A stretch of 64,000 nt of DNA from contig JAUHXR010000004.1 in the NCBI GenBank assembly GCA_030426845.1, positions 1-64,000 of the forward strand. The letters are read 5' to 3'. The notes under the pieces were generated by a model, which saw only the letters and a program-made list of their open reading frames with translations, searched no databases and was not told the origin of the DNA. Shown one piece after another: positions 50,619-54,320 of this stretch (positions are counted from its first letter, which is position 1; the number at the start of each line of letters is the position of its first letter). Source of the stretch: Polyangia bacterium. GTDB lineage: Bacteria; Myxococcota_A; Polyangia; Polyangiales; Sandaracinaceae. Made by a program: the position numbers and the translations under genes.

Positions 50619-52709
50619 TCAGGGAGTCATAGGCTCGGACGCGACGCCGTCGCCGGTCTCCGGTGGCGGCGTCGCTGCGTCCGAGGTCGACTCCGGGGAC
50701 GCGGCCGCGTTCGTCAGGTTCGCACCCGACATCTCGGCGCCGCCGTCGGAGAACATCACCCCGAAGGCGATCGCGGCCGTCACGACGACCATCGACACCA
50801 GGGCGACGAGCGGGATCCACGGCGCGTCCTTGGGCTCCTCGTCGCGTCGCTTGGCGTAGATGCCCGAGCTCTCCGGCTCGTCCCAGCCCTCGAGGATCGC
50901 GAGCACCTCGCCCATCGAGGCCGGGCGACTCGAGGGGTCGCGCTGGAGCATCCGGTCGATCGCCTCGTCGACGCGCGGGGGCACCTCCGCTCGCAGCGAC
51001 GACACGCGCGGCGCGGGGTCGGTCGCCTTGTGGAGGAGCACCTCGCCGGCCGACGGCGCGACGAACGGCGGCCGCCCGGTGAGGAGCGCGAAGGCGATCG
51101 AGCCGAGCGCGTAGACGTCGGTGCGCGCGCCCACGTCGCCGCCGTAGACCTGCTCCGGGGCGCAGTAGTCGGGCGTGCCCATGAAGGTGCCGACGTGGGT
51201 GTGGTGGGTCGCCGACGCGAGCTCGGGCGAGAGCACCTTGGCGATGCCGAAGTCGAGGATGCGGATCGCGGAGCGCGACGGCGTCATCACCTCGGCGTCC
51301 ATCAGGAAGAGGTTCTCGGGCTTGAGATCGCGGTGGACGATCCCGAGGTCGTGGGCCCGCCGCATCGCCCGCGCGACCTGGGTGAGGAGCGCCTTGGTCT
51401 CGTCCACTCCGAGCGGCCCGTTGCGCTCGAGCAGCTCCGCGACCGTCTCGCCGCGCAGGTACTCCATGATCGCGTAGGGCCGGCCGTCCGGGAGGGTCCC
51501 GAAGTCGAAGAACGCGGGGATGCTCGGGTCGCCGACCGCGCTGGCCGCGCGCGCCTCCTGCTCGAAGCGCTCGACCGCGCCGCCCGTCCGGATGACGTCC
51601 TTGCGGAGCACCTTGATCGCGACCGAGGTGCGCAGCCGCTCGTGCTCCGCGCGGAACACCTCGCCGACGCCGCCGGCGCCGATCCGCTCGACGATCCGGT
51701 AGGGGCCGATCCGGGCGCCGATCAGGCTCTCGCTCACCGCCGGGGGCGGCTCGGAGTAGCGCGCGTTGCGCCCCGCGCCGACCAGCTCCTCGGCCACCGC
51801 GCGCGCGCTCTCGGGGCGGTCGGCCGGGTCCGCGGCGAGGCAGCGCTCGATCACGCGACGCACCGGGTTGGGGATGTCGGTCGCGCGCTCGTCGCGCGGC
51901 ATCCGCACCGGGGTCCCCGCGAGCTGGGCCACGATGCGCTCGCGCGAGGAGCCGCCCTCGAACGGGAGGCGGCCGGTGATCATGCGGTAGCCGAGGACCC
52001 CGAGGGCGTAGAGGTCGGTGCGCGGGCCGACCGCGGGCTCGCCCCGGAGCTGCTCGGGCGCGAGGTGCTCGGGCCGCGAGAGCCAGGCCTCGCGGGCTTC
52101 CTGACCCTCCGCCTCACGGAGCGGCGACAGCCCGAAGTCGGCGACCCGGACGGGGTCGAGCGTCCCGCCGCGCGCGTCGACGTGGACGTTGCGCGGGCTC
52201 AGGTCGAGGTGGAGGAGCGACTGGGCGTGCGCGGCCTCGAGGGCGCGCGCGATCTTGACGAGCGCGGAGACCACCTGCGGGAACGGGAGGTGCCCCTCGG
52301 CGTCGAGCACCTCGGCCAACGTCGAACCGGTGACGAAGTCGGTGACGACGTAGGGCAGCCCGAGCTGCGCGTCCTCGCCGTAGTCTCCGACGCCGAGGAT
52401 CGCGTCGCCCGTGAGCTCGCTGGCGCGCGCCGCGGCCTCGAGGAAGCAGCGGCGCGCGGCCGGCTGCGCGGCGAGCTCGGGCCGGAGGATCTTGATCGCG
52501 ACGCGCCGGCCGAGGACCGCGTGGTGCCCGCCGAAGACCATCGTCGCGCGACCCACGCCCCGCGCCCGGTCCGCGAAGTAGCGCGCGCCCAGGGTGAACG
52601 GGCGCAGCAGCGCGCCATCCCGGGGGCAGAAGGGGAGCCCGGAGGCGACGCCGCAGCTCGGACAGACGTCCGGGCGGTCGATCGTGAGCTGGGGTTGAGG
52701 GGTCGACAT
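50619..52709 (-). CDS. Tandem Ser/Thr kinase with N-terminal zinc ribbon
   Basis: A 696-residue protein with two kinase domains. A zinc-ribbon start (CPSCGVASGLPFCPRDG) precedes kinase 1 (about 40-305). Kinase 1 lacks a normal glycine loop (YFADRARGVGRATMVFGG), keeps VAIKIL lysine and DFG (VADFGLSPL), and has LHLDLSPRNVHV, with the Arg before the catalytic Asp changed to Leu, plus APEQ. Kinase 2 (about 330-610) is canonical: IGAGGVGEVFRAEH, VAIKVLRK, IVHRDLKPENLFL, ILDFGIAKV and GTPDYCAPEQV. One helix near 640-660 (IPLVALVSMVVVTAAIAFGV) and a short acidic Ser/Thr-rich tail end the protein. ATG 52709. Kinase 1 may be a pseudokinase that controls kinase 2. Confidence 0.92.
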   Translation of the reverse strand: MSTPQPQLTIDRPDVCPSCGVASGLPFCPRDGALLRPFTLGARYFADRARGVGRATMVFGGHHAVLGRRVAIKILRPELAAQPAARRCFLEAAARASELTGDAILGVGDYGEDAQLGLPYVVTDFVTGSTLAEVLDAEGHLPFPQVVSALVKIARALEAAHAQSLLHLDLSPRNVHVDARGGTLDPVRVADFGLSPLREAEGQEAREAWLSRPEHLAPEQLRGEPAVGPRTDLYALGVLGYRMITGRLPFEGGSSRERIVAQLAGTPVRMPRDERATDIPNPVRRVIERCLAADPADRPESARAVAEELVGAGRNARYSEPPPAVSESLIGARIGPYRIVERIGAGGVGEVFRAEHERLRTSVAIKVLRKDVIRTGGAVERFEQEARAASAVGDPSIPAFFDFGTLPDGRPYAIMEYLRGETVAELLERNGPLGVDETKALLTQVARAMRRAHDLGIVHRDLKPENLFLMDAEVMTPSRSAIRILDFGIAKVLSPELASATHHTHVGTFMGTPDYCAPEQVYGGDVGARTDVYALGSIAFALLTGRPPFVAPSAGEVLLHKATDPAPRVSSLRAEVPPRVDEAIDRMLQRDPSSRPASMGEVLAILEGWDEPESSGIYAKRRDEEPKDAPWIPLVALVSMVVVTAAIAFGVMFSDGGAEMSGANLTNAAASPESTSDAATPPPETGDGVASEPMTP

Positions 52710-52893: not shown

Positions 52894-53490
52894 ATGACGG
52901 TGGCAGCACGGACGGGGATCCAGCTCGCGGGCGCGCTCCTCGTGGCGCTCGTCGCGGCGCTCGGCTGCGATGGGCCGATCGAGGTGGACGCGGGGATGGA
53001 CGCAGGGGGGCGCGCCGACGCGGGCGCGCCAGACGCGGGGACCGACGCGGGCGTGGACGCGGGCGGGACGGACGCCGGGCCAGCCGACGCCGGGGTCACC
53101 GACGCGGGAGCCTCCGACTCCGGCCCGAGCCCCGACGCGGGACCCGACCTGGACGCCACGCGTCGTCGCCTCGCCGCGGCGTGGCGCCACGCCTCGGGCA
53201 GCAACTCCGACGGCCGCGCGCTCTGCAACGGTCAGTGCGGCTTGGTGACTGACTCGGCGCTGCGCAGCGTCTGCCGCGACGACTGCGGCTTCGTCACCGA
53301 CCCCGATCTGCGCGCGTTCTGCTCGGGTCAGTGCGGCTTCATCACCGACCTCGACCTGCGCCGCTTCTGCGAAGGGTCGTGCGGCCTGATCACCGACCCC
53401 GACCTGCGCGCGCTGTGCCGGGGCGACTGCGGGTTCGTGACCGACAGCGCGCTCCGCAGCTTCTGCAGCGGGTCGTGCGGCCTGCTCTGA
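52894..53490 (+). CDS. Lipoprotein with a 16-residue cysteine repeat
   Basis: A 198-residue lipoprotein: the signal peptide and lipobox are LLVALVAALGC, the linker (about 30-85) is almost pure Asp-Ala-Gly. The C-terminal 88 residues are five full copies, plus a sixth partial, of a 16-residue unit with consensus C-x3-C-G-[LF]-[VI]-T-D-x2-L-R-x-[FLV]. Each unit gives two Cys three residues apart, so the domain would be either a disulfide ladder or a metal-binding solenoid outside the cell. I recognise no family. ATG 52894; a 184-bp region separates it from the divergent tandem-kinase start. Confidence 0.75.
   Translation: MTVAARTGIQLAGALLVALVAALGCDGPIEVDAGMDAGGRADAGAPDAGTDAGVDAGGTDAGPADAGVTDAGASDSGPSPDAGPDLDATRRRLAAAWRHASGSNSDGRALCNGQCGLVTDSALRSVCRDDCGFVTDPDLRAFCSGQCGFITDLDLRRFCEGSCGLITDPDLRALCRGDCGFVTDSALRSFCSGSCGLL
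53224..53487 (+). repeat. 48-bp tandem repeat encoding the Cys unit
   Basis: Five in-frame 48-bp units from 53224 to 53463 and a 24-bp partial sixth ending just before the stop. The protein unit begins Cys-x3-Cys-Gly. DNA units have drifted (different third bases), so the repeat is an old protein-level duplication rather than a recent DNA slippage product. Confidence 0.85.
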
Positions 53491-53525: not shown

Positions 53526-54320
53526 TCAGCCGCCGCCGTGCGGCTGGCAGGTGCTCGTCCCGTTGTCGTGATCGCACTCGAGGTCGTTCGCGCACTCGAA
53601 GCGCACGGTGCACGGGCTCCCCACCGGGAGGTCGCCGAGGTCCGGCTCGCAGAGCCCTTGCCCGGGCAGCTCGATGTCGCAGCGCCCCGTGCCGCAGTCG
53701 GCGTCGGTCGCGCACGGGCCGACGGCGACGGGCCCGACGAGGAGCCGGTCGGTCTCCACCACCCCGATGGGCTCGGTGGAGAAGCGCGCGCTCACCGCGA
53801 CCCGCTGCTCCTCGCGCGCCGGGTCGTCCTCCTGCGCGATCTCGCGGACGCGCGTCAGGTCGACCTCGAGGTTGGTGAACATCTCGAGGCACGAGATCGG
53901 GCTGCGGTCCGGGTTGAGGTCGCAGTTGGCGGTGCCATCGGCGCTCGTGAGCGTGGCCGTCGTCCCGTCAGCGCTCACCGGCCCGCGGAACGCGACCCGG
54001 GTGCTCTGGCCGACGAGCATCTTCGGAAGGTTGTAGGCGAGGACGACCTCGTTACCCGCGACCGTCCACTCGACCTCGTCGACGGGGTAGGTCGACACGT
54101 CGGTGCGCTCCGGGACGAAGTACACGCCGTCGAACACGAGCGCGAGGATCTCGGCGGGGCCGGCGTCCGCGCCGGGCGGGCCGGCGTCCGTGGCCCCCGG
54201 CGGGCCGGCGTCCCCGGTCGGCGGCCCCGCGTCGAGCGGGGCGGCGCCGTCGTCGCAGGCTCCGAGCAGGAGGAGCGAGCCCGCGAGGGTGAGGGTGGCG
54301 ATTCGGGTCTGCATCTTCAT
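53526..54320 (-). CDS. Cys-rich lipoprotein co-translated with a regulator
   Basis: A 264-residue lipoprotein: lipobox in AGSLLLLGAC, an Asp-Ala-Gly-Pro linker to about 58, a middle domain with beta-rich composition (DEVEWTVAGNEVVLAYNLPK), and a C-terminal Cys-rich part with the spacing CATDADCGTGRC, then CTVRFECANDLEC, common in myxobacterial surface proteins. Its ATG (54320-54318) overlaps the stop of the upstream regulator (ATGA), so its synthesis follows directly from that transcript. Function unknown; convergent with the Cys-repeat lipoprotein. Confidence 0.8.
   Translation of the reverse strand: MKMQTRIATLTLAGSLLLLGACDDGAAPLDAGPPTGDAGPPGATDAGPPGADAGPAEILALVFDGVYFVPERTDVSTYPVDEVEWTVAGNEVVLAYNLPKMLVGQSTRVAFRGPVSADGTTATLTSADGTANCDLNPDRSPISCLEMFTNLEVDLTRVREIAQEDDPAREEQRVAVSARFSTEPIGVVETDRLLVGPVAVGPCATDADCGTGRCDIELPGQGLCEPDLGDLPVGSPCTVRFECANDLECDHDNGTSTCQPHGGG

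Follow-up and report, generated by a model that had tools for sequence, protein, structure and literature searches.

The P0001 gene and its precursor

The window (the whole stretch of 64,000 nucleotides that was analysed) contains the gene P0001, which is present as a single copy in the source genome and stands alone between a tandem-kinase gene (50619-52709, minus strand) and an Asp-Ala-Gly lipoprotein gene (53526-54320, minus strand). The features of P0001 are listed in Table 1. Its GC content by codon position (0.72/0.62/0.92) shows the pattern expected of a real GC-rich gene. The first of the two flanking genes encodes one chain with two protein-kinase domains; the product of the other is a second Asp-Ala-Gly lipoprotein, with a Cys-rich C-terminus and without a Pfam match. 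Comparing the gene neighbourhoods at 21 loci revealed no conserved neighbour: apart from the repeat gene, nothing but unrelated kinase ORFs came up.

Judging from its hydrophobic signal sequence P0001 is probably exported, with a putative lipid anchor at C25, and the relatives of one family (f41) also have signals ending in a similar way (LLACS or LLGCT). The Asp/Ala/Gly/Pro linker which follows is missing in the remaining relatives of the same order. A short Ala/Arg-rich segment sits between this linker and the Cys array, and according to the alignment the Ala-rich N-terminal helix is retained in relatives with the same arrangement of modules (half+5+half, see below).

Table 1. Features of P0001, in window positions.
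Feature	Position	Strand	Description or basis
Repeat lipoprotein gene P0001	52894..53490	+	198 aa, ATG to TGA
Signal sequence with lipobox-like end ...VAALGC; C25 is the predicted lipidated Cys	52894..52968	+	read by eye from the sequence
Asp/Ala/Gly/Pro-rich linker, residues 26-88 (63 residues)	52969..53157	+	composition
N-terminal Ala-rich helix before the array, residues 89-99	53158..53190	+	AlphaFold2 (helix 2-12 of the 111-aa fragment); alignment
N-terminal half module NSDGRALC, ending in C111	53203..53226	+	module analysis, AlphaFold2
Module 1, C115-x11-C127, CGLVTDSALRSVC	53236..53274	+	Cys spacing, module analysis
Module 2, C131-x11-C143, CGFVTDPDLRAFC	53284..53322	+	Cys spacing, module analysis
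Module 3, C147-x11-C159, CGFITDLDLRRFC	53332..53370	+	Cys spacing, module analysis
Module 4, C163-x11-C175, CGLITDPDLRALC	53380..53418	+	Cys spacing, module analysis
Module 5, C179-x11-C191, CGFVTDSALRSFC	53428..53466	+	Cys spacing, module analysis
C-terminal half module CGLL (C195), directly before the stop	53476..53487	+	Cys spacing, module analysis
Array Cys codons (first base)	53224, 53236, 53272, 53284, 53320, 53332, 53368, 53380, 53416, 53428, 53464, 53476	+	

Period and unit of the Cys array

The array comprises 88 residues with 12 Cys in a strict 16-residue period, the spacing C-x3-C-x11 being repeated throughout. A first reading of the DNA, made from the sequence only, had placed the repeat at 53224-53487, in exact agreement with the twelve Cys codons, but had taken it for about 30% of the protein; with 88 of 198 residues it accounts for 44% of the precursor. 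Self-identity peaks at period 16 with 56%, the maximum in 5000 shuffles of the same residues, over all periods from 8 to 30, being 27%. A single-sequence search with the array found homologues at E-values down to 6e-26, which excludes a chance origin. The 16-residue repeat of P0001 is thereby confirmed.

The unit itself had been framed as starting with C-x3-C. Relatives with longer linkers, together with paired Cys losses, redefine it as C-[GSAEY]-x-[IV]-x-[DN]-x-D-x-R-x2-C, a C-x11-C module of 13 residues, successive modules being separated by linkers of 3-12 residues. What stays constant among the relatives with long linkers is C-[GSAEY]-x-[IV]-x-[DN]-x-D-x-[RK]-x2-C, and the length between modules varies: C-x11-C stays intact while the linker reaches 7-12 residues, and no C-x3-C is present. 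On these alignments the three residues within the C-x3-C of P0001 are the shortest inter-module linker. P0001 shows what defines the family, tandem modules of this type in a probably exported protein, with the second Asp replaced by Ala (TDSALR) in two of the five window modules. The similar Arg/Asp-rich repeats of myxobacterial proteins to which the sequence-only reading referred are members of the same C-x11-C family.

Pairing of the cysteines

In the 16 relatives built of whole modules, both Cys are present in 77 of 96 modules, neither in 19 and a single one in none, although these losses come mostly from one related family (f41) and may represent as few as two or three independent events. 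The Cys-less modules have Y...G in 18 cases and T...A in one. Across the x3 linker, on the other hand, one-sided loss is found at 38 of 80 junctions and two-sided loss at none. In L055 the pair of unit 5 is the only one lost, and the two Cys of this unit must therefore be partners. Joint loss within C-x11-C, never of one Cys alone, argues for a disulfide inside each module and against metal sites at C-x3-C.

It might still be proposed that the C-x3-C pair, alone or with Asp, binds zinc, iron or copper, making the protein a metallothionein-like store or sensor. The spacing, the number of twelve Cys and some weak zinc-finger-like profile matches, all below cut-off, would fit such a ladder of metal sites. 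We nevertheless regard it as very improbable, since the pairs across the linker are never the ones lost jointly, the replacements (Tyr/Gly or Thr/Ala) offer no alternative ligands in modules that are otherwise preserved, the long-linker relatives do without this pair altogether, and the proteins carry export signals. Of the two initial guesses, disulfide ladder or metal sites, the disulfides are thus the better one, with the bridge placed within the 13-residue module and not between the Cys of C-x3-C.

Arrangement and number of modules

At the 16-residue period two arrangements occur. The half+5+half type is found in the window protein and ten others, most of which have CGSI or CGAI immediately before the stop codon. 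In the second type, represented by 16 proteins, there are six whole modules, as a rule followed by a short C-terminal tail, for example SGRKYPG. Longer linkers and a spacing of 20-25, mostly 23, mark a third group. The total is six modules in 11 of 11 half+5+half, 16 of 16 whole-module and 16 of 16 long-linker proteins; in P0001 the halves NSDGRALC and CGLL would together make the sixth. Counting the repeats in homologues, as had been proposed in advance, gave six in most relatives, sometimes three, and two in phages. A two-module profile, used for less bias towards six, added three-module relatives, L178 and the divergent L176, L177, L179 and L180. Intact arrays of four, five or more than six modules were not seen among the relatives found. 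Two f41-type relatives, L182 (G385) with one module and L105 (G236) with two, have the same signal and tail otherwise, and their low counts may be due to a real contraction or to collapse in short-read assembly. Among paralogues of the half+5+half type, L036 and L040 (from G170 and G169) are degenerate and retain about two Cys pairs.

In the long-linker group, units 1/4, 2/5 and 3/6 are most alike (0.83, 0.77 and 0.75, compared with 0.64-0.73), and units 3 and 4 are often separated by a linker with two extra residues; both features point to a 2 x 3 plan of this array.

Five internal C-x11-C bridges leave C111 and C195 over. These two may bond together and form a ring, bond another molecule and give a polymer, or remain reduced. 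For the ring we propose, tentatively and as a rather unlikely extension of the module scheme, that six modules make a closed disc or one tight full turn, in which the NSDGRALC half and CGLL would form the sixth module locked by C111-C195, comparable to the way in which a beta-propeller is closed by its velcro; relatives with whole modules would then be circular permutations of this ring, which the three-module proteins would build as dimers. Such a six-module ring, if true, would be the closed helical repeat with the smallest unit, and to our knowledge none with a smaller unit has been described. Still less probable is a covalent surface fibre or patch, in which C195 of one chain would bond C111 of the next. 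It would make use of the two unpaired Cys and of the exact CGSI/CGAI-stop ends of most half+5+half relatives, but a polymer does not need a total of six in both arrangements, and the whole-module relatives have no free ends.

Predicted structure

The AlphaFold2 model of the window array (111 aa, alignment of 21 sequences) is all-helical with a mean pLDDT of 95.0 and a pTM of 0.84, values to be read with the reservation that AlphaFold2 is sometimes over-confident on near-identical tandem repeats. Each unit is modelled as a helix of 7-8 residues and a helix of three. For the long-linker group an independent run, with an alignment of genome loci only, gave a pLDDT of 92.7 and a pTM of 0.81, with helices of 12 and 6 residues per unit. 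In both models the elements follow each other in the same order, with longer helices in the second, which supports homology between the two groups. The predicted fold class is an all-helical repeat. The structure prediction called for beforehand hence returned an ordered fold, and the disordered outcome, which would have spoken against the repeat, did not occur.

A Foldseek search with the window model found no match in the PDB (best E 4.5, TM at most 0.23) or among viral models. The long-linker model shows a weak likeness to PPR/TPR-like superhelices (TM 0.42-0.46, E above 1).

A model of one continuous ordered domain also bears on the idea that P0001 is a multi-core precursor, cleaved after export into identical small disulfide or modified peptides. 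Near-identical units in tandem on a small exported precursor are what this would predict, but a pattern of cleavage sites between the units is absent, the 21 loci share no neighbouring protease or modification gene, and the copy number is nearly fixed, so that we consider it highly improbable.

Sequence evolution within the arrays

Positions 3, 5, 7, 11, 14 and 16 of the unit are far more alike within proteins than between proteins. At position 11 the identity is 84% within and 37% between proteins, at position 5 it is 77% and 28%. Where residues are identical, the sharing of codons is about that expected from codon usage (0.41 against 0.46 in L048, 0.36 against 0.46 in L055), which speaks against very recent homogenisation of the DNA and means that the likeness is not simply due to recent duplication. 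Either selection that keeps one surface on all units or an old conversion followed by synonymous drift explains it. It is above all this within-protein likeness of the unit surfaces that speaks for a role in multivalent binding or as a scaffold.

Distribution of the family

The relatives of P0001 are small exported proteins. With the single array as query and E <= 0.01 they turned up in 13 of the order's 84 genera, the weakest of them doubtful; a profile search at E <= 1e-5 found them in 11 of the 84. In the profile search 46 of 379 genomes of the phylum had relatives, as did 13 of 71 genomes in another class of the phylum. One relative (L078) comes from a MAG named Sandaracinus sp. NAT131, and a profile search of genome contigs with a tighter alignment yielded mostly MAGs already found, plus L079. 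An f41-type, myxobacterial member (L077) lies on a contig labelled as a Klebsiella pneumoniae MAG, a label which looks wrong.

Outside the phylum, tblastn found modules in Pseudomonas megaplasmids and in phages of about 90 kb. The megaplasmid loci L083/L092 have six modules at a spacing of 21, L084/L091 three at a spacing of 23. A three-module relative (L084:5960-6217, L087 and others) occurs on 117 plasmid records, nearly all of them Pseudomonas megaplasmids, and for most of these records the PLSDB table has no gene entered at its site. Two modules are found in phages of Pseudomonas, Aeromonas and Bordetella. The phages Jeremy, Dolphis, Touem01, ST4 and PHB04 (L085, L086, L088, L089, L090) each encode an exported two-module relative of 66-79 aa upstream of the major capsid protein gene, between the portal and the position of the capsid protease, with the exception that PHB04 has a helicase in place of the portal. 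An exported Cys-stapled protein inside a phage head operon is unexpected. Scans of viral contigs found no relatives.

Slippage can create tandem repeats, and the two MAG relatives with two and one units (L105, L182) might be taken as signs of it. The reading of the array as a low-complexity slippage product, without fold or function, is however largely refuted by the conservation of the family across the phylum, plasmids and phages; the synonymous codons between units are at equilibrium, the module number is nearly fixed and the model is of high confidence. We give it almost no credence.

Comparison with known repeats

Searches of Pfam, NCBIfam, PADLOC and the PDB sequences gave no significant match for P0001, and the five relatives compared with Pfam and NCBIfam, three of which have longer linkers, were likewise without one, in line with the initial description of the repeat as unfamiliar. 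Neither P0001 nor its relatives come near a cut-off of the Myxococcus cysteine-rich repeat models of NCBIfam, and the Sel1 profile of Pfam matches neither. Profile searches of PDB sequences gave spurious matches only, such as an F-box/LRR protein (6o60, E 0.005) which we judged to be composition-driven. The same holds for phrog_19268 of PHROGs, matched by the relatives at E 7e-4 with no stretch passing alone. Literature searches for CX11C or a short disulfide helical repeat found no description. The family is therefore new to the searched domain libraries, whereas its general kind, disulfide-stapled helical repeats, is known.

Closest in kind are the Sel1-like proteins HcpB and HcpC of Helicobacter, exported Cys-rich alpha/alpha repeat proteins whose repeats each carry a regularly placed disulfide (PMC2581425, PMC3851747). 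The window family is likewise exported and Cys-rich, with predicted helices and a probable disulfide in each module. In Sel1/Hcp, however, the repeat has 36-38 aa and the disulfide connects the end of each repeat with the beginning of the following one (PMC2581425, PMC3851747), whereas here the unit has 16-25 aa and the bridge would lie inside the module; no Hcp structure was among the Foldseek matches listed for the window or the long-linker model. Repeat region 2 of CagY from Helicobacter pylori is a surface-exposed, very stable tandem alpha-helical module with regular Cys (PMC2581425), but, compared by description, its motif has 38-39 aa and a highly variable copy number instead of a near-fixed six. 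The alpha-solenoids of TPR/PPR type have units of 31-36 residues without Cys staples; the window family has neither this unit length nor a matching Pfam profile, and a weak overall likeness exists for the long-linker model only. Bacterial ice-nucleation proteins share the tandem 16-residue repeat, but they are modelled as a beta-solenoid of tens of repeats (PMC9418140), in contrast to the six Cys-stapled units of the predicted all-helical window array. What sets the window family apart is its unusually short unit, the near-fixed six modules and the lack of a structural match.

Proposed function and significance

We consider it reasonably probable that P0001 is an exported, probably lipid-anchored array of the C-x11-C module C-G-x-[IV]-x-[DN]-x-D-x-R-x2-C, recurring at 16-residue intervals, which forms a disulfide-stapled helical domain with a multivalent binding or scaffold role. 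After export, oxidation in the envelope would form the five C-x11-C bridges. Each module would consist of a short helical turn (C-G-x) followed by the 7-8 residue helix (x-D-x-R-x-x-C), closed by a disulfide from its first to its last Cys, with the three residues between modules serving as linker only. The six modules (half + 5 + half) would stack into a compact, rigid domain hanging from the membrane by the flexible Asp/Ala/Gly/Pro tether. This presumably protease-resistant array could then bind a partner through the side chains repeated on every unit, those at positions 3, 5, 7, 11, 14 and 16, which within a species are the same in each unit. Both the binding function and the anchoring are inferred. 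The sequence-only reading, partly supported overall, thus stands in its main point, an ordered array with regular staples, carried by an exported and probably lipidated protein.

At 16 residues, the predicted helical unit of P0001 is roughly half as long as the alpha-solenoid repeats compared here (31-39 residues). Such a minimal disulfide-stapled helical repeat would probably serve outside the cell as a binding module that resists proteases. With Cys pairs replaced jointly in nature and the number of modules nearly fixed at six, pairing and closure are directly testable in a small protein, and the C-x11-C module could be useful as a stable scaffold. The repeat defines an uncurated exported family of Myxococcota, which is also present on Pseudomonas megaplasmids and in the structural operons of phages.
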